A stretch of DNA of 64,000 nt from Nostoc sp. NMS7. GTDB taxonomy: Bacteria; Cyanobacteriota; Cyanobacteriia; Cyanobacteriales; Nostocaceae. The stretch covers positions 1 to 64,000 of the forward strand of contig NZ_JABXKJ010000097.1 of the NCBI RefSeq assembly GCF_017115085.1, given 5' to 3'. Under the pieces are notes generated by a model. It was not told the DNA's origin and ran no database searches. It worked only from the letters and a program-made list of their open reading frames with translations. A program made the translations under genes and the position numbers. Shown in pieces: positions 6,429 to 17,426 of this stretch; the first letter of the stretch is position 1; every line of letters begins with the position of its first letter.

Positions 6429-7391
6429 TTATAGCTTCCCAGATGTGGTTGTTGGATTCTTGCTCATAATGGTTTTTGCCATTTCTAGAAGCCCAAAAAC
6501 ATTAGCTTCCACTGGATTATCCAGAATTTTGAAACCGTTCTTTTCTAAGAGCTTCTTAAATCCAGGTAAGAGGCAACCTCCACCTATAGCCCAGATTTCA
6601 TCCCCTTGGTGCTTGGCATCAAGTGTCAGATTCACCACTTTCTTCAAGTATTTTTCATACCAATCTTTCAAACAAGCACTGTATATATCTTTGATATCGA
6701 TGTCACGGCTGTACTTGGTATGTCCCATCTCCAGACAAAATCGGATTTTGGATGCATCCCCGATTTTTCCGCCATTTAGATGTTTCATTTTTTGGGAAAT
6801 ATCATCAATGAGAACTTCTACACCAATGGGATAGGCAGTGTGAACTTCTCGTTTCCCCTGGTTGTAACGAGAATACAGAGTCGTACCATTACCAAAGTCT
6901 AAAATGGTTAATTTTTTCGGTAGTTGATGCCCAAATAATGCACCCATCCCCTCTAGCACAACTTTCAGCACTTCTACTTTCACCTCTGATTGTTTGCCAG
7001 CAAGTATTGGCTGATATTCTCCACTTAGTACTTTTTGTAATTCGTCAGCCAGACCAACATCATGTAAGCTGACGACTAATTTTAAGTGCCAAGCCTTACG
7101 GTGTGGCAGATGTGCCAATGCACCGAATAATGTCAATAGCGCATTATTGACTTTATTTTCATTGTTGTCTGTATTCCGGTCAAAATGATAACCTGTGCGG
7201 AAGGCTGATTCTCCAACAGTGTAAGCAGTACCATTAAAAACTACTCGTCCGGGTACATCTTCCATCTCGGCTGTGGAAATATAGCTGGGGACACGAACAA
7301 CTTCAAAGCCATCGACTAAAAGTTTTAGGCTTCCATAACCGTTATCAAAGCCAGCAGGAAAAATTTTTTGTAAGGTATGAATGTTCGACAT
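6429..7391 (-). CDS. parM: Actin-like plasmid segregation ATPase (ParM/StbA family)
   Basis: DNGYGSLK and ILDFGNGTTLY phosphate motifs, IWAIGGGCLLPGF adenosine motif. Start taken at MSNIHTLQK (7391) rather than the upstream M at 7499. Confidence 0.75.
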   Translation of the reverse strand: MSNIHTLQKIFPAGFDNGYGSLKLLVDGFEVVRVPSYISTAEMEDVPGRVVFNGTAYTVGESAFRTGYHFDRNTDNNENKVNNALLTLFGALAHLPHRKAWHLKLVVSLHDVGLADELQKVLSGEYQPILAGKQSEVKVEVLKVVLEGMGALFGHQLPKKLTILDFGNGTTLYSRYNQGKREVHTAYPIGVEVLIDDISQKMKHLNGGKIGDASKIRFCLEMGHTKYSRDIDIKDIYSACLKDWYEKYLKKVVNLTLDAKHQGDEIWAIGGGCLLPGFKKLLEKNGFKILDNPVEANVFGLLEMAKTIMSKNPTTTSGKL

Positions 7392-7499
7392 TGGGGGAAA
7401 GGTAATACGGTTCAATTTGTAAAAGTTAGCAGTTGAGGAGATATGGGGGAGCAGAGGATAGAAGAATAAAATGACTACCTCTTTTTTCTCCAGCCTCAA

Positions 7500-7950: not shown

Positions 7951-7976
7951 ACACTATGCTGCTGATAGTCAGTAAA

Positions 7977-8741
7977 ATGTTAACTCTTACTTGTGCATCC
8001 TTGTCCGGTGGCCAGGGAAAAACAACTGTTGCAATCTTGTTGGGTAGAATGCTTGCTCAAACAGGACAGCGTGTACTGATGATTGATGCCGATCCCCAAG
8101 CGAACCTAACTTTTTACCTGGGGCACGAAGTTCAGCAGAATCAACCCACGCTTCTAGAAGTTCTCAAAAAACAGATCAATACTGAAGATGGTATTTACGA
8201 AATCGGAGAAAACCTATGGTTAATTCCTGCTGATGATGGATTAGATAATGCTCAAGAATTTTTGTCTGGGAGCGGTATGGGAGCTATTGTTCTGAGCAAA
8301 CGCTTAAAAGAGATATCAGATTTATTCCAATATTGCATTGTCGATGCGCCACCTCAGCGATCGCAAATCTGCCTTACATCGTTGGGGGCAGCTGACCATA
8401 TCATCATTCCTGTAGAAGCATCATCCAAAGGTGTAAATTCTCTCATCCGAACTCTGAGTTTAGTTGAGGAGCTTCAAGAAATTGATGCTTTTTCAGGGAT
8501 AGTACTTGGCATCTTGCCATTCAGAGATAAATGGGTAGGTAATAACCAAGTCGCACAAAGTAAGGCGAGTATCAGTGCAATGCGAACAATTGCCGAAGAA
8601 ATAGTCGTTTTACCTTCAATTTTAGAATCTGAACAATTTAAAAAGGCCATAGATAAAGGTGTAAGTTTGTCCTCTCTAGGATTTGAACAACTCGAAACTC
8701 CCTTCCAACAAATTATCGAGAGGTTACAAAAGAATGTCTGA
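7977..8741 (+). CDS. parA: ParA-family partition ATPase
   Basis: Deviant Walker A SLSGGQGKTTVAILLG, MIDADPQANLTFYLG, CIVDAPPQ. Start MLTLTCASL at 7977 is preferred; the ORF begins at 7956. Confidence 0.85.
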   Translation: MLTLTCASLSGGQGKTTVAILLGRMLAQTGQRVLMIDADPQANLTFYLGHEVQQNQPTLLEVLKKQINTEDGIYEIGENLWLIPADDGLDNAQEFLSGSGMGAIVLSKRLKEISDLFQYCIVDAPPQRSQICLTSLGAADHIIIPVEASSKGVNSLIRTLSLVEELQEIDAFSGIVLGILPFRDKWVGNNQVAQSKASISAMRTIAEEIVVLPSILESEQFKKAIDKGVSLSSLGFEQLETPFQQIIERLQKNV

Positions 8742-10885: not shown

Positions 10886-11002
10886 TTTGTTAGTATACGT
10901 AATCTATTGTTAGCAAATAGTTAGCTATTGGCTAACCCTAATCCATCCGTGAGAGGTTAAGGTAATTGCACTAATATCTGGGATGTTGTAGGAAAAAGCA
11001 GT

Positions 11003-11021
11003 AATTCTCATAATGAGAATT
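11003..11021. promoter_or_regulatory. Perfect palindrome, candidate operator
   Basis: AATTCTCAT-A-ATGAGAATT (9-bp arms). Confidence 0.45.
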
Positions 11022-11082
11022 GCTGGATATTTGCAACTTGGTGGATAATTACTCTTAGTCAAATTCTATTGCCAATGGTGAG

Positions 11083-11457
11083 TTATAAAGCTTTAAGGAA
11101 CTGCACTGGTTCTGTAGCCTCACGGCTGTTATTCACAAAAATATCAGCAATTAGTCGTAAAACTTCAGCCTGTTCTTCTGGAGGTGCTTCAGCAATTAGC
11201 GATCGCAGGCTAATTCCTGGCCTTTGACCAAATAACTCAGATAAATACCACACCCTAGCTTCTACCGGAATAGCCAAAAGTAGCGATATTAGTTTTGATG
11301 CTCCTAGATCCGCCTTCCCGCGACGAAAGCGGGATAACATTACTTCCGACACTTTAGCCTGTTCAGCAGTTTTCTTCGCTTCCAAATTGAAGCGATTCAT
11401 CATCTCATCGAATAACTGCTGATAACTTTGAGTTTTTTCTGATACAAAACTTTGCAT
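11083..11457 (-). CDS. XRE-like HTH regulator
   Basis: KKTAEQAKVSEVMLSRFRRGKADLGASKLISLLLAIP, HTH_XRE-like. Confidence 0.65.
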   Translation of the reverse strand: MQSFVSEKTQSYQQLFDEMMNRFNLEAKKTAEQAKVSEVMLSRFRRGKADLGASKLISLLLAIPVEARVWYLSELFGQRPGISLRSLIAEAPPEEQAEVLRLIADIFVNNSREATEPVQFLKAL

Positions 11458-11737
11458 TGCTTTGCTAATTATACTTAAGTTTAACGGTTATACTATTTGA
11501 TGTTTGATGAAACAACAACGATGATGTATACCCTAATCTTACCAAACTCTTGCTAGGAGTGCTTTTTTCCAGACATATCTTTAATCTTCAGATTACTAGC
11601 ATAGCCATCAAATAAATACCTTGTCACGATTGAATATAAAAGTTCGTTGACTAAGTGTTAATGATGGACACCTAAAAAATTAGTCTCTATCCCAACGGAT
11701 CGAGGTGAAATTTTGTCTTTTCATTTGTATTAGCAAA

Positions 11738-12634
11738 ATTGTGACACAACCAAATTCAAAAATTCAGGGACGTTTCTATCCACTTCAGCATGAAGAATGG
11801 CTGAAAGCCTGCCGTGAACTCACACCAGCACAGAGGGATATCCTCTACTACATCCGAACCATTGATCCTTATAACCAAGGGATTGACATCAATGCCGCCG
11901 AGGTAGCTCGTAAGCTGTCAGCACCAGAGCGGATAGTCCACAGGCAAACTGTAAGCCGCGCTCTCAAGGAATTAGACGCAAAGGGATTCATTGATCTAGA
12001 GCTATTGCAAGTCAGAACCAAGGTGAAGCCAAAGGGATTATGGTGCAATAACACACCTGAATTTATTGAAGACACCGATGGTGTGATGACGTACCCAAGG
12101 TGTGATGACGCACCCAAGGTGTGTGAAGACACCGATGGTGTGATGACGCACCCAAGGTGTGATGACGCACCGAGCGCGATCGCCACGCACCACGCTGGAT
12201 CACCACACACCACGATGGATCATGACGCACCATGCGCGATCGCCACGCACCATGCGGAGGCTGAAAGCCTTGTGGAGAGAGGATTACAAAACCCTAAGAT
12301 CAATAAGAATTATTTAGACTTTATAAAGACTCTCTCAGAAGACGAGCGAGCGAATTTTTTGGAATTTTGTGAGGAAAAAACCAAAAATCTTAGCCAGCCA
12401 GTGAACGACATTGAGGCTTGGTTAGCTCATAAGAACAAAGCCGGAAGAAATCGCTGGGAGGTTTATTACGAAAAATATCTGGCTTCAAAACAGGTACAAG
12501 CCAAAAAAACTGAAACAAAAAATGCTCGAGACGAATTCCACCGAGAAATCGAGGAACGGCAGCGACAGGCTCAAAGAGCTTGGGAAGAGTCGCAAAGGCA
12601 AAATCTCGCTCTTGATACTGGAGGTGCGACATGA
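11738..12634 (+). CDS. Winged-helix plasmid replication initiator candidate with intragenic repeats
   Basis: N-terminal wHTH (LTPAQRDILYYIRT..VHRQTVSRALKELDAKGFIDLE); directly upstream of dnaB (4-nt overlap); central repeat region encoded by iteron-like DNA. Start position approximate (ORF track 11705). Confidence 0.6.
   Translation: MVTQPNSKIQGRFYPLQHEEWLKACRELTPAQRDILYYIRTIDPYNQGIDINAAEVARKLSAPERIVHRQTVSRALKELDAKGFIDLELLQVRTKVKPKGLWCNNTPEFIEDTDGVMTYPRCDDAPKVCEDTDGVMTHPRCDDAPSAIATHHAGSPHTTMDHDAPCAIATHHAEAESLVERGLQNPKINKNYLDFIKTLSEDERANFLEFCEEKTKNLSQPVNDIEAWLAHKNKAGRNRWEVYYEKYLASKQVQAKKTETKNARDEFHREIEERQRQAQRAWEESQRQNLALDTGGAT
12069..12257. repeat. Iteron-like direct repeats inside the initiator CDS
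   Basis: GGTGTGATGACG(T/C)ACC(C/G)A(A/G) at 12080, 12099, 12137, 12156 (pairs of 19 bp, 57-bp higher-order period), then CGCGATCGCCACGCACCA(C/T)GC at ~12176 and ~12236. Confidence 0.8.
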
Positions 12635-13986
12635 TTGATAAATTGCCACCCCAAAACATCGAAGCGGAAGAGGCGATTTTAGGCGGTATCATGCTTGACC
12701 CAGAAGCAATTGGTAGAGTCAGCGATCGCCTTATTCCCGAAGCCTTTTACATTAGCGCCCATAAAGATATCTATCAAGCCGTCCAGCGCCTTCATTACTC
12801 TGGTAAACCCACTGATTTACTCACAGTTACAGCTTGGCTTACTGACCACGATTTACTAGTCCGTATCGGCGGGAGAAATAAATTAGCAACTCTGGTAGAC
12901 CGCACAGTGTCAGCTGTCAACATTGACACTTTAGCCGAGTTGGTAATGGACAAATTCGCGCGTAGACAGTTAATCAAGGCTGGAAATGAAATTGTACATC
13001 TGGGTTACGAGACAGAAACTGAGTTACCACAAATCCTTGACCAATCAGAACAGAAAGTTTTCCAATTATCTAATCAAACCCTATCTTCAAACACTGAACA
13101 CAACAGCACGATTAACGTTGCTGCTTACGAGGATTTAAATTCAGGAAACCCCATTTACCCTACAGGACTTCATGAACTCGATAATTTGATGGTGGGATTT
13201 GAAAGCGGCACACTCACCATAGTTGCGGGTAGGCCATCAATGGGAAAGTCCCAAATTGCCTTGTTTTTGGCTTTCCAAATGATACTGTTCCATGAGCTAC
13301 CTGTGGTCATCTTCTCCTTGGAGATGACAAAGAAACAATTGGAGTACAGGCTGTGGAGCTTAATTAGTATTACCAACGCTTACAAGCATCTAGAGTTAAC
13401 GCCACTAAAAAGCGATCGCATCCGCAGACATCGCTCAGGTAATAAACCCCTAGCAGACTGGGAATTTACAAGCATTGCCAAAATCGTCGGTGTTGCTTCA
13501 GAATTACCGCTGTACATGAATGACTCAAGGGGCATCACCGTTTCACAAATTGCGTCAGAATGCCGTCAAATTAAGGTCAAAGAAGGAAAACTGGGGTTGG
13601 TTGTAGTTGATTACCTACAAATGATGGCAGAGGACTCTGGAGGGAACCGTAGCTATGAACTAGGAGATGTGGCCAGGGGACTTTACAAAATGGCAGGGGA
13701 ACTGGATGTACCTGTGCTAGCACTGTCGCAAATCTCTAGGGGAGTTGAGGGCAGACAGAATAAGCGCCCAATGATGAGCGACCTCAGCCAATCGGGAATT
13801 TTAGAAATGGTGGCAGACAATATTATTCTCGCTTACCGGGATGAGTACTACAACTCAGATACTACAGATCAAGGAATATTAGAACTCATCATGGCTAAGG
13901 CACGACACGGTGAAACAGGCACAGCAACGGTATTTTTTGACAAGTCCTATGGAATTATCCAGAATTTGCGCTCCGGAAATATCTGA
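12631..13986 (+). CDS. dnaB: Replicative DNA helicase DnaB
   Basis: LPPQNIEAEEAILGGIML; Walker A AGRPSMGKSQIALFLA; LGLVVVDYLQMM; MSDLSQSGILEMVADNIILAYRDEYY. Confidence 0.95.
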   Translation: MIDKLPPQNIEAEEAILGGIMLDPEAIGRVSDRLIPEAFYISAHKDIYQAVQRLHYSGKPTDLLTVTAWLTDHDLLVRIGGRNKLATLVDRTVSAVNIDTLAELVMDKFARRQLIKAGNEIVHLGYETETELPQILDQSEQKVFQLSNQTLSSNTEHNSTINVAAYEDLNSGNPIYPTGLHELDNLMVGFESGTLTIVAGRPSMGKSQIALFLAFQMILFHELPVVIFSLEMTKKQLEYRLWSLISITNAYKHLELTPLKSDRIRRHRSGNKPLADWEFTSIAKIVGVASELPLYMNDSRGITVSQIASECRQIKVKEGKLGLVVVDYLQMMAEDSGGNRSYELGDVARGLYKMAGELDVPVLALSQISRGVEGRQNKRPMMSDLSQSGILEMVADNIILAYRDEYYNSDTTDQGILELIMAKARHGETGTATVFFDKSYGIIQNLRSGNI

Positions 13987-14752
13987 GTCTTCAAACTGCT
14001 GTCAAACCCATCCGCCTCCTGTATCGGAACTTTTACTGGGGGGTATTGATAATAGCCCTAGTAAAAACTCTGAACAAATAGAGATATCCCCCAGTAAAGA
14101 TAACCCTAGTAAAAAGCCTGAACAAATAGAGATATCCCCCAGTAAAGACAACCCTGGTAAAAAGCGCAGAAATTGGGGTGAGGGTAACGGCACTATTTAT
14201 TGGCGCACCATTACTAGGGGTGGAAAGGACTACCCCCAGGCTTATTATCATTGGCAAGAACAAGGGAGAAAGAAGACCAAGTACATTCCCAAGCAAATAC
14301 TTGGGGATATTCAAGAAGCAGAGTTCAACAAGCGCCCAATTAGAGAAATTTTGACATTACTGGGTGTTGTGCCTAGCCCTAGTAAAAACACATTACTGGG
14401 GGATATCGAAAATAACCCTAGTAAAACTAGACCACACAAAGAAATACCCCCCAGTAAAAATAACCCTAGTAACGATGTCGAACAGTCAGAAATAACCCCC
14501 AGTAAAAATAACCCTAGTAAAACTAGACGACACAAAGGATTAGGTAGTGGCTCCATTCAGTGGAAAACCATCACCCTTCACGGCAAAGATTATCCCCAAG
14601 CTTGGTATCACTATGAGTTTTGGAAAGATGGTAATCGCCTGGTTAAAAAGTGCAAGTATATTCCAAAACGACTATTAAGCAGAATAGAGAAGCTAGAAGC
14701 AGATAAAGCCCCAGTTAGAGAAATTTTGCTAATATTGCGGGTAAAATTATAG
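13910..14752 (+). CDS. Unknown protein with two copies of a ~65-aa domain joined by PSK-repeat linkers
   Basis: GNGTIYWRTITRGGKDYPQAYYHW..KYIPKQIL..PIREILTLL and GSGSIQWKTITLHGKDYPQAWYHYEFW..KYIPKRLL..PVREILLIL. Confidence 0.7.
   Translation: MKQAQQRYFLTSPMELSRICAPEISESSNCCQTHPPPVSELLLGGIDNSPSKNSEQIEISPSKDNPSKKPEQIEISPSKDNPGKKRRNWGEGNGTIYWRTITRGGKDYPQAYYHWQEQGRKKTKYIPKQILGDIQEAEFNKRPIREILTLLGVVPSPSKNTLLGDIENNPSKTRPHKEIPPSKNNPSNDVEQSEITPSKNNPSKTRRHKGLGSGSIQWKTITLHGKDYPQAWYHYEFWKDGNRLVKKCKYIPKRLLSRIEKLEADKAPVREILLILRVKL
14028..14520. repeat. Array of ~15 CCCYAGTAA / TTACTRGGG nonamers inside the CDS
   Basis: CCCTAGTAAAAA and CCCCCAGTAAA repeatedly, in both orientations (e.g. TTTTACTGGGGGG at ~14030, TTACTAGGGG at ~14210, TTACTGGGGG at ~14393). 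Confidence 0.75.
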
Positions 14753-14920
14753 AAAAACCGTAAGGATTCAGGTCGCTAGTTTGCTCTCCTTCCCAAAACT
14801 TTAAGCTCGTGACCCCCTTTGGGGGTCACGGCGCCATAAAAATAAAAAAATATTGTCAAAACGCCAAAAATGTTTTGGGGTATTGACAGGTGTAACACGC
14901 AAGGCAGATTATCAAAGTTA

Positions 14921-15197: not shown

Positions 15198-17426
15198 TCA
15201 CGTCTCACTTTCTTGAAACGCTAACTCCAACGAAAACGGTAGGCACCCAGGATTAGCAGCTGCCCACTCATTAGCTTCTGCAATTAGAGTTTTGTTACCC
15301 GAATCGAGATAAAATTGCATTTTGGCACTCTGCTCCAGTCTTTCGCGTTCCCTGCCTCCTATCAAGCGTCGCGCAATTAGGCAGTACTCTCTAGCTACAC
15401 GCTTGGCGTGGGATGCTGCTTGGAGTCGCAACTTAGTCAGTTTCTTCAGTTCTGACAAAGCGAGAGTTGCTGCTGGGTCGCCTGAAGATGTGCTTTGCTC
15501 ACTAACTTCAGCTTTTTGTGACGTTTCAGGCGGCACAATTGCAGATGTAGGCGCAGTAGGTGGAATACTCACAGAATTGATTGATAAGTTTTTGTTATTG
15601 CAATTTTCAACCGCGCCGGGGTTAGAAAGGTATTTAAAATCCTTATGTGAATTACTTTCATTAACATTTTCAGCTAGTTGTATAATATTTGAAGAAACTA
15701 ATGAATTATCAGATTTCTTGACAGTTGAGGTTAAAGACAAATCTTCTAGCTGTAATAAATTCAATTCTTCGGAATTAATATTAATTTCTTCAGATTCATC
15801 TTGGATTTGCAGTAAAAACAATTCTCCTTCAGACACAGCAACTTCTTCAAAACTTGCTACTGCCTGCTGCCCTGTAGGGGCATCGGCAGCAGGAGGTAAC
15901 CATTTACAAAAAACCTTCATATAGAAAGAATGACCGTCATTTTCCTTTTGGTAAGGGTTTTCAGCACTTTGTTTTGCAAATGAGTTTTGAAAGCTATTAA
16001 ATTGCCCGTCATTTGTTGATTTATAAGGGTTTGAGCTATTTTCTGTCCAAGGGTCTAAGATGTAGCGCGTAGGATGCCACAAATGCAAGTGCTTTTGTAA
16101 TGTCTCTTGTGAGATAGTTTTGTGAAAACGGCGTTTGTATTCAGCACGTATTGCTTTCCCCCGTTCAGTAGCCCCTACTGGCAACCCTCTATCCCACTCT
16201 ATTGCCCTTACCACTAACTGGATACGTTGTTGAGCTTTTTGGCTGCGTTCCCAGTTCTGTTGCTTACGACGGTCAAATGGGATTACGTTGTCTTTGGGTT
16301 TATGGATGCTGCTAATGCCTGCTATGGCTTCTGCAAATGTGTTGGCGAATGTACCCAATAGCCGTTCGGGATAACTAATATAGGCGCTGTACCATTTGTT
16401 GCGAATTGTGGATTCTACCCAATGCCGCACTCTAGCTTCGATTTCGTGCTGGTGTCGGCAATATTGGCTGTAGCCAGGGGCGTTAATTGCGGTAGTAAGG
16501 CAAAATTCAACTAATTTATCACTCTCTAAGTCTAAAAAGACGATTCCGTAGCCTACGAAGATTTGTAGGAGGGTGTTTGTTTGTCCTTTTCCTGTCCAGC
16601 CTGTGGTGATGATTTCTTCCCAGTTGGCACGCCACTGTACAACGTCAGCAGATTCTTGCTTGCGATATCTCTCCCGTGAAATTTGTTTTTTGGCTTTGTT
16701 CGCTACCCGTTTTAGTTTGGTTAAATCTTGCCGACTTGCCGCGCGATCGCAATGGTCGAGGAAGATAGAAACTGAGTCACTAATAGCTTGCAGGTCGTCA
16801 TTAAGTAAAAATGACCCGCTACCCGGTTGCATGGGGCAACGGATAGCTTTGTAGTTGGTTATTTGTTTGGCACTATATGGTTTGGTGTTGGGGAAGATTT
16901 CTAGGTGTCCTTGGCGCAGGATAAAACCTGCATTCCTCAAGGTAATCTCTAAGGCGCAGGCTAGGGCAAAAGTGGGCAGGGGAGATGCAAAGGTTAGGAT
17001 TAGGTGATAGCCGCCACTAAAGCTGGACTGGAGGATAATGATATCGACTATGCCAATGTCCTCTAGCGCTGCTTTGATCCGATTTATGGATTCAATGTTA
17101 TGGTAGTCGCCTTCTAAGTCTAAATCGATTGTGGCGTAACGTGTTGTGTCGTTAAAGCGCAGACCTACTAGTTTCGACTTGTCTTGGTGTAGGTTCCACA
17201 GTTGGGAGGGTTGCAGGTAATAATCGATGGTACGCCATGCTGGTTTTTCATCACCTTCTGCTTGATTTGGGGCGATAATTGCCCCAAATGGATGCCAAAA
17301 ACGCTCTACGTAGCGTTTGCCCACATAATCTGCGAGCAGGTGGGGTTTGATTTTCTTTTTTGAAGGCTGTGAAAGGCTTAATTGGGGCTTGTTCTCGACA
17401 TCTGAAGAGAAACTTTCTTGGTACAT
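15198..17426 (-). CDS. Archaeo-eukaryotic-primase-like replication protein
   Basis: TIDLDLEGDYH (DxD-like), SSFSGGYHLILTF (sxH-like), HLEIFPNTKPYSAKQI; large C-terminal region. Confidence 0.6.
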   Translation of the reverse strand: MYQESFSSDVENKPQLSLSQPSKKKIKPHLLADYVGKRYVERFWHPFGAIIAPNQAEGDEKPAWRTIDYYLQPSQLWNLHQDKSKLVGLRFNDTTRYATIDLDLEGDYHNIESINRIKAALEDIGIVDIIILQSSFSGGYHLILTFASPLPTFALACALEITLRNAGFILRQGHLEIFPNTKPYSAKQITNYKAIRCPMQPGSGSFLLNDDLQAISDSVSIFLDHCDRAASRQDLTKLKRVANKAKKQISRERYRKQESADVVQWRANWEEIITTGWTGKGQTNTLLQIFVGYGIVFLDLESDKLVEFCLTTAINAPGYSQYCRHQHEIEARVRHWVESTIRNKWYSAYISYPERLLGTFANTFAEAIAGISSIHKPKDNVIPFDRRKQQNWERSQKAQQRIQLVVRAIEWDRGLPVGATERGKAIRAEYKRRFHKTISQETLQKHLHLWHPTRYILDPWTENSSNPYKSTNDGQFNSFQNSFAKQSAENPYQKENDGHSFYMKVFCKWLPPAADAPTGQQAVASFEEVAVSEGELFLLQIQDESEEININSEELNLLQLEDLSLTSTVKKSDNSLVSSNIIQLAENVNESNSHKDFKYLSNPGAVENCNNKNLSINSVSIPPTAPTSAIVPPETSQKAEVSEQSTSSGDPAATLALSELKKLTKLRLQAASHAKRVAREYCLIARRLIGGRERERLEQSAKMQFYLDSGNKTLIAEANEWAAANPGCLPFSLELAFQESET

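Follow-up and report, generated by a model that had tools for sequence, protein, structure and literature searches.

The rep-dnaB locus of a Nostoc plasmid

The window analysed here is the whole stretch of 64,000 nucleotides formed by bases 1-64000 of a 103,112-bp contig in an 8.29-Mb Nostoc genome. Its relatives are Nostocales plasmids, and its rep-dnaB region is ~96% identical to that of pn3, a circular 218-kb plasmid of Nostoc sp. UHCC 0926; judged by sequence, the contig is a Nostoc-type plasmid. A circularity check found no terminal overlap of 30-399 bp at the contig ends. The features are:

11083-11457, minus strand: small HTH/XRE-like regulator gene (ORF), divergent from rep, synteny conserved
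11741-12634, plus strand: rep, the initiator gene containing the putative origin; 297 aa from GTG at 11741, with an in-frame GTG upstream at 11705
11786-11980, plus strand: N-terminal winged helix, residues ~16-80; AlphaFold pLDDT 83-92, weak MarR_2 match, recognition helix HRQTVSRAL
12042-12171, plus strand: iterons, seven units on a 19-bp grid; strong palindromic boxes at 12080, 12099, 12137 and 12156, degenerate units at 12042, 12061 and 12118
12172-12251, plus strand: four 20-bp units, each with the right half-site (C/G)AC(G/A)CACC at its end and HIP1/GATC at its left
12263-12361, plus strand: conserved AT-rich DNA element overlapping the CTD start; AGA at 12297, 12306, 12316, 12327 and 12337, then CTCTCAGAAGA-GAGCGAGCGAATTTTTT
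12311-12631, plus strand: conserved C-terminal domain (CTD), YxDFIKTLSE...DIEAWLA...NRWEVYY
12631-13986, plus strand: dnaB, plasmid-encoded replicative helicase; TIGR00665, 446 bits against a cut-off of 385

The rep and dnaB genes overlap by four bases, and the TIGR00665 match of the second bears out the original prediction that DnaB comes next. The plasmid DnaB falls in a clade separate from DnaB proteins of ~55% identity, which are apparently chromosomal. Another dnaB of the window's genome (G000:C266:2394-4979) is 60% identical and lies in one open frame of 899 aa, interrupted by about 1.3 kb of what looks like an intein. The divergent regulator gene has a counterpart in matching position in L089, L090, L091, L092 and L097; its product matches no Pfam family of HTH/XRE regulator kind, and we regard it as a candidate copy-control gene. 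Genes for a ParA-like protein (7956-8741) and a ParM-like protein (6429-7499) both lie within 6 kb of the array. Scanning for promoters and terminators gave chance-level hits only, and an Rfam scan of 10900-14800 returned nothing near a gathering score.

Two neighbouring genes deserve mention in their own right. An ORF at 13910-14752 overlaps the end of dnaB, encodes a ~50-aa domain repeated twice and contains a second intragenic array (14033-14520) of 14 CCCYRGTAA sites, three of them on the minus strand, where 1.3 matches would be expected by chance in 64 kb; the motif is retained in L001-L004, L007, L042, L089 and L091 regardless of iteron type, and the product is possibly a protein for partition or copy control whose sites lie inside its own gene. 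The minus-strand gene at 15198-17426 encodes a 742-aa protein without a family match. By eye, its motifs TIDLDLEG and SFSGGYHL resemble those of archaeo-eukaryotic primases (PrimPol), and it is possibly a primase of the plasmid.

In the AlphaFold prediction, the N- and C-terminal parts of the rep product are folded and flank a linker (residues 100-186, pLDDT < 50) that runs across the array; the repeats encode a linker predicted to be disordered, as had been anticipated. Public annotation calls the gene a 'MarR family transcriptional regulator' or a 'helix-turn-helix domain-containing protein', and neither Pfam nor NCBIfam names a family for the whole protein. The CTD has no Pfam, NCBIfam or phage match, and Foldseek found no match in PDB or BFVD at E <= 0.001, which leaves no basis for linking the CTD structurally to DnaD or another loader. 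Among 35 members of the family, PHROG profiles for replication initiation matched 15, for a DnaD-like helicase loader 9 and for an O-like initiator 8, and Pfam HTH_36 matched 12; the sole PHROG match of the window protein is phrog_4278, of unknown function. RepA_N (PF06970) and Rep_3 (PF01051) were absent from the window protein (E <= 0.1) and from the 25 families listed for the 35 members (E <= 0.05), neither DUF3854 nor a DEXD domain was found in the window's rep, and no lambda-O Pfam model was among the matches listed. All 27 plasmid records with a CTD match have it in exactly one place, as would fit a replicon-specific initiator.

Repeated and conserved DNA within rep

The sequence GGTGTGATGACGCACC occurs four times, once with one mismatch, at 12080, 12099, 12137 and 12156, forming the two 19-bp tandem pairs, with a 57-bp step from pair to pair, that had been described at the outset. 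Allowing up to three mismatches, there are 4 matches in the 64 kb against 0.2 expected; the 8.29-Mb genome holds the four boxes in rep and one 2-mismatch copy elsewhere, and in pn3 and TCL26-01 plasmid B the boxes are confined to rep. They are imperfect palindromes of the form GGTGyG-N4-CrCACC and share a 19-bp grid with degenerate units at 12042 (GGTGCAATAACACACC), 12061 (right half only) and 12118 (GGTGTGTGAAGACACC). The HIP1-containing repeats reported to follow the iterons are also present, as HIP1/CACGCACC units with a 20-bp period at 12165-12256. The grid steps by 19 bp up to 12171 and by 20 bp thereafter with the right half-site retained, and in total eleven right half-sites, spaced 19-20 bp, occupy 12042-12251. 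Because 19 and 20 are not divisible by 3, successive copies lie in different frames, so it is the DNA and not the peptide that is repeated. No iteron was found upstream of rep. The span first assigned to the origin, 12069-12257, does hold the array but is too narrow, as half-sites begin at 12042 and the functional unit would reach to about 12361.

Each of the four units closest to the conserved element (12172-12251) carries a GATC, at 20-bp steps and in two cases as the HIP1 site GCGATCGC; similar units with GATC occur in L001, L007 and L019, and these sites might allow methylation control.

In the conserved element AGACT recurs every 9-11 bp and is followed by CTCTCAGA, and almost all relatives have nearly the same sequence, CCTaAGAnTaaTaAGACTTATtcAGAcTTTAtanAgACTCTCTCAGAAganGAGCGAGcGAatTTTTT. 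Its synonymous codons are almost invariant (Thr ACT 100%, Leu CTC 94%, Ser TCA 88-100%), with conservation dropping to background from about 12371. Across the CTD and dnaB of 28 taxa, 12302-12359 is the strongest stretch of 20 codons, with a mean z of 10.0 against 6.8 for the next best and p ~ 6e-7 against dnaB; shared ancestry is controlled in this comparison because other codons of the same genes serve as the yardstick. AGA at 9-11 bp steps is present in 29 of 35 sequences, compared with about 2 (maximum 6) after synonymous randomisation. In L022 the element is an additional segment located ~50 bp upstream, and the codons of the CTD motif differ, indicating that conservation of the DNA is separable from that of the peptide, and L198 has neither array nor element. 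Of all 60-mers in rep, the one beginning at 12283 is the least stable, and AT content reaches 0.75 in the 40-mer beginning 50 bp before the TLSE Leu codon. From these features we regard 12263-12361 as a probable DNA-unwinding or helicase-entry element. A second peak of synonymous conservation (mean z 6.8 over 20 codons) lies within dnaB at 13357-13417, where it adjoins a HIP1 site.

Relatives, helix/half-site covariation and cassette exchange

A dnaB search returned 80 loci, and about 60 relatives were compared overall. Loci whose DnaB is at least ~60% identical mostly have the same upstream gene, and those at ~55% look chromosomal. The winged-helix gene belongs to a widespread cyanobacterial plasmid family, usually with dnaB next, whose members all have the CTD in common and differ in N-terminus and linker. 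When 35 non-redundant sequences (below 90% nucleotide identity) were scored against dinucleotide shuffles, a direct-repeat array was found in 31 (z > 4, median 31), almost always in the linker, and a second set from other genomes had one in 24 of 29. Periods are usually 20 or 21 bp (or 40, 42, 60), the array commonly ends ~80 bp before the conserved TLSE codon, and the downstream genes in the 35-sequence set mostly have no array. The unit is lineage-specific and often palindromic (for example GTTTCCTATAGGAAAC, GTCTCAAAAACGAGAC, CCGCTTATTTAAGCGG and TTGGACAGAATTGTCC); exact 5-mer palindrome counts are significant in only part of the relatives because the boxes are imperfect. No clear array was seen in L015, L030, L031, L181, L184 and L198, and a weak one in L038, L179 and L195. 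The original prediction would have been refuted had close homologs lacked the repeat: all of them keep it, and distant ones have an array of different sequence in the same place.

The next gene is not dnaB in L095-L099. A replicon with its own DnaB, as first proposed, is the usual arrangement but not an obligatory one, and we rejected the notion that each plasmid must carry its own, several relatives having a different next gene. Different iteron types coexist in multi-locus assemblies (Pelatocladus L014/L016/L020; Calothrix CSU_2_0 L019/L024), a pattern that would again fit a replicon-specific initiator. No description of this rep family was found among openly licensed papers. In L099 (pAQ5), a hypothetical gene at 2571-2741 is labelled an ACT beta-lactamase by the PLSDB resistance prediction, which looks spurious since the gene is only 171 bp long. 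CTD copies in long open frames were also found on chromosome-sized contigs (G048:C1:3751297, G244:C1:2881734, G122:C7:865013 and 1510324, G210:C1:2770757, G047:C1:3739284); these copies could represent either plasmids that have integrated or plasmid-type origins on which chromosomes can draw. DnaA is sometimes dispensable in the cyanobacterial phylum.

Members with a KIQGxFYPL-type N-terminus have a recognition helix of the form HR-x-TV-x-RAL, and the residue after HR varies together with the half-site in the linker. With Q, the linker contains 10-20 CACC half-sites and CAAC is nearly absent; with S, CAAC numbers 7-19 and CACC 0-3; members with R mostly have GCGAC as the half-site. The pairing of Q with CACC and of S with CAAC held in every HR-Q/S-TV member seen. 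As there are few changes on the tree, this covariation partly reflects shared ancestry, and it supports rather than proves that the N-terminal domain (NTD) reads the boxes in the linker.

In three relatives, L010-L012, identity to the window is 87-89% between the divergent regulator and rep codon 33 (to 11838), and the intergenic region upstream of rep is 87% conserved. Beyond 11838 they have a different initiator head and different iterons, leaving the old 33-codon stub in front of the new start, and they rejoin the window at 12292 with 83-84% identity. In the L001 group, identity to the window is 92-94% from 12186 through dnaB and only 66-72% before that point. Judged from these alignments, the NTD and iterons are exchanged between plasmids as one cassette. 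There is a described precedent in pPR9 versus pSK41, where NTD plus origin were exchanged and the CTD kept (PMC5703833).

A putative origin embedded in its initiator gene

The arrays, their conservation, the conserved element, the correlation of helix and half-site and the cassette exchange can all be read directly from sequence. We consider it highly probable that 12042-12361 is the oriV of an iteron plasmid, embedded in its own initiator gene; the placement of the origin inside that gene, central to the original prediction, is supported in silico by the covariation, the cassette exchange and the conserved downstream element. The predicted anatomy, with palindromic two-turn iterons, a ~40-bp gap, an AT-rich repeated element, the CTD and DnaB, corresponds to an iteron origin that includes a helicase entry site. 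From it we infer binding of the initiator (as dimers), melting, DnaB loading and incompatibility. The winged-helix NTD, probably as dimers, would bind 16-bp palindromic boxes at 19-20 bp steps, which amount to two helical turns and so place the copies on one face of the DNA. Strain from this complex would open AT-rich 12293-12361, about 40 bp from the array, and the plasmid's own DnaB, recruited by the conserved CTD, would be loaded there. Since one reading frame encodes the head and contains its binding sites, both can be replaced in a single recombination event; such a swap would alter specificity, and probably incompatibility as well, without touching the CTD, the opening element or dnaB.

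The suggested check by GC skew proved uninformative. Among 10 complete plasmids the amplitude was nominally significant in three, with no consistent sign and no relation to rep, and on the window's own 103-kb contig a maximum rather than a minimum, opposite to the usual sign, lies ~5 kb from rep. Irregular skew has been reported for cyanobacterial chromosomes (PMC7198777). The few relatives in which no clear array was seen, and the CTD's lack of structural or sequence resemblance to known helicase loaders, also weigh against the origin reading. DnaA boxes (TTWTNCACA) occur in the window only at 11129 and 49675, with none in 11.2-49.6 kb.

The array could instead be a control or incompatibility site, through copy-number titration or handcuffing by Rep, with the true origin elsewhere, for example at 11458-11740 or beyond dnaB. 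Iteron arrays commonly serve in both roles, the intergenic region upstream is conserved too (87% in L010-L012), and there is the second intragenic array at 14033-14520. However, the region upstream of rep is free of iterons, the gene with the CCCYAGTAA array stands apart from dnaB in most relatives, and an independently conserved second DNA element adjoins the rep array, its start coinciding with the cassette boundary in L010-L012; we judge this reading improbable. Partition offers another reading, in which the array is a parS-like centromere: centromeres too can have arrays of ~20-bp repeats, and the ParA-like and ParM-like genes lie within 6 kb. The array is nevertheless part of rep rather than of the par genes, staying with rep and dnaB while the surrounding par genes differ, and an AT-rich conserved element is unexpected in a centromere, leaving this with very little to recommend it. 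Equally slight is the chance that the winged-helix protein is an ordinary MarR-like transcription factor, as the public MarR or helix-turn-helix annotation implies, and the repeats its operator or a neutral low-complexity linker. Repeats are frequent in disordered linkers, but here their 19/20-bp period is out of frame, the genome has no exact or 1-mismatch sites elsewhere, and synonymous invariance downstream, a single copy per plasmid record and initiator-like profile matches all speak against a regulator.

Taking 12042-12361 as the origin, its layout is lambda-O-like, as proposed, in having intragenic iterons, but the closest counterparts are, instead of lambda O/P, gene 18/12 of P22, which brings its own DnaB, and the RepA_N plasmids. 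In P22 18/12 and phage L the initiator gene has its own coding-region iterons, differing per phage, and a DnaB-type helicase gene comes next (PMC8022706); intragenic iterons, specificity peculiar to each relative and the adjacent helicase gene are common to both systems, whereas those are phage modules and ours is a plasmid module whose CTD lacks a phage-protein match and whose putative opening element is conserved across the family. Lambda O likewise has imperfect inverted-repeat iterons of ~19 bp, placed centrally in the initiator gene, and an adjoining AT-rich tract (PMC7466680), resembling the ~19-20 bp units and AT-rich tract here, but lambda P loads host DnaB, and here dnaB itself follows. 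In the RepA_N plasmid pSK41 an NTD winged helix binds Rep boxes located centrally in rep, the ori encodes the linker and the CTD is separate, and the chimeric Rep of pPR9 has an HTH_36 (PF13730) NTD (PMC5703833). These too are plasmids with boxes in mid-rep and an NTD-linker-CTD layout, and 12 of 35 members here match HTH_36; in contrast, the RepA_N domain was not found here, and a dnaB partner is absent from the RepA_N description. Staphylococcal RepA_N plasmids use antisense RNA control. CyRepA1 and CyRepA2 are also cyanobacterial plasmid replication initiators, with DUF3854/DEXD domains (PMC10079941), but they represent a different replicon class, rep here having neither domain. Rep_3 iteron plasmids (RK2, F, pPS10 type) differ in that no Rep_3 domain and no DnaA boxes in the origin were found here. 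By the domains tested, rep is not a RepA_N, Rep_3 or CyRepA member; the layout matches, and by analogy the rep-dnaB module may work like P22 18/12, lambda O and the RepA_N plasmids.

A broader proposal, which we hold tentatively and as something close to an even call, is that 12263-12361 represents a new origin-opening site (AGACT at 9-11 nt steps, then CTCTCAGA), common to several cyanobacterial families regardless of iteron type and read sequence-specifically, for example as a single strand by the CTD or DnaB, with interchangeable NTD-iteron cassettes and their one-residue/one-base specificity code upstream.

Autonomously replicating sequences of cyanobacteria are poorly known (PMC10079941). 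For dozens of sequenced plasmids the family would narrow the origin down to ~320 bp, its iteron sequence would predict which plasmids should be compatible, and it would offer mini-replicons for filamentous strains. It would also document, in nature, how cassette exchange alters initiator specificity and how a DNA element can be preserved inside coding sequence.
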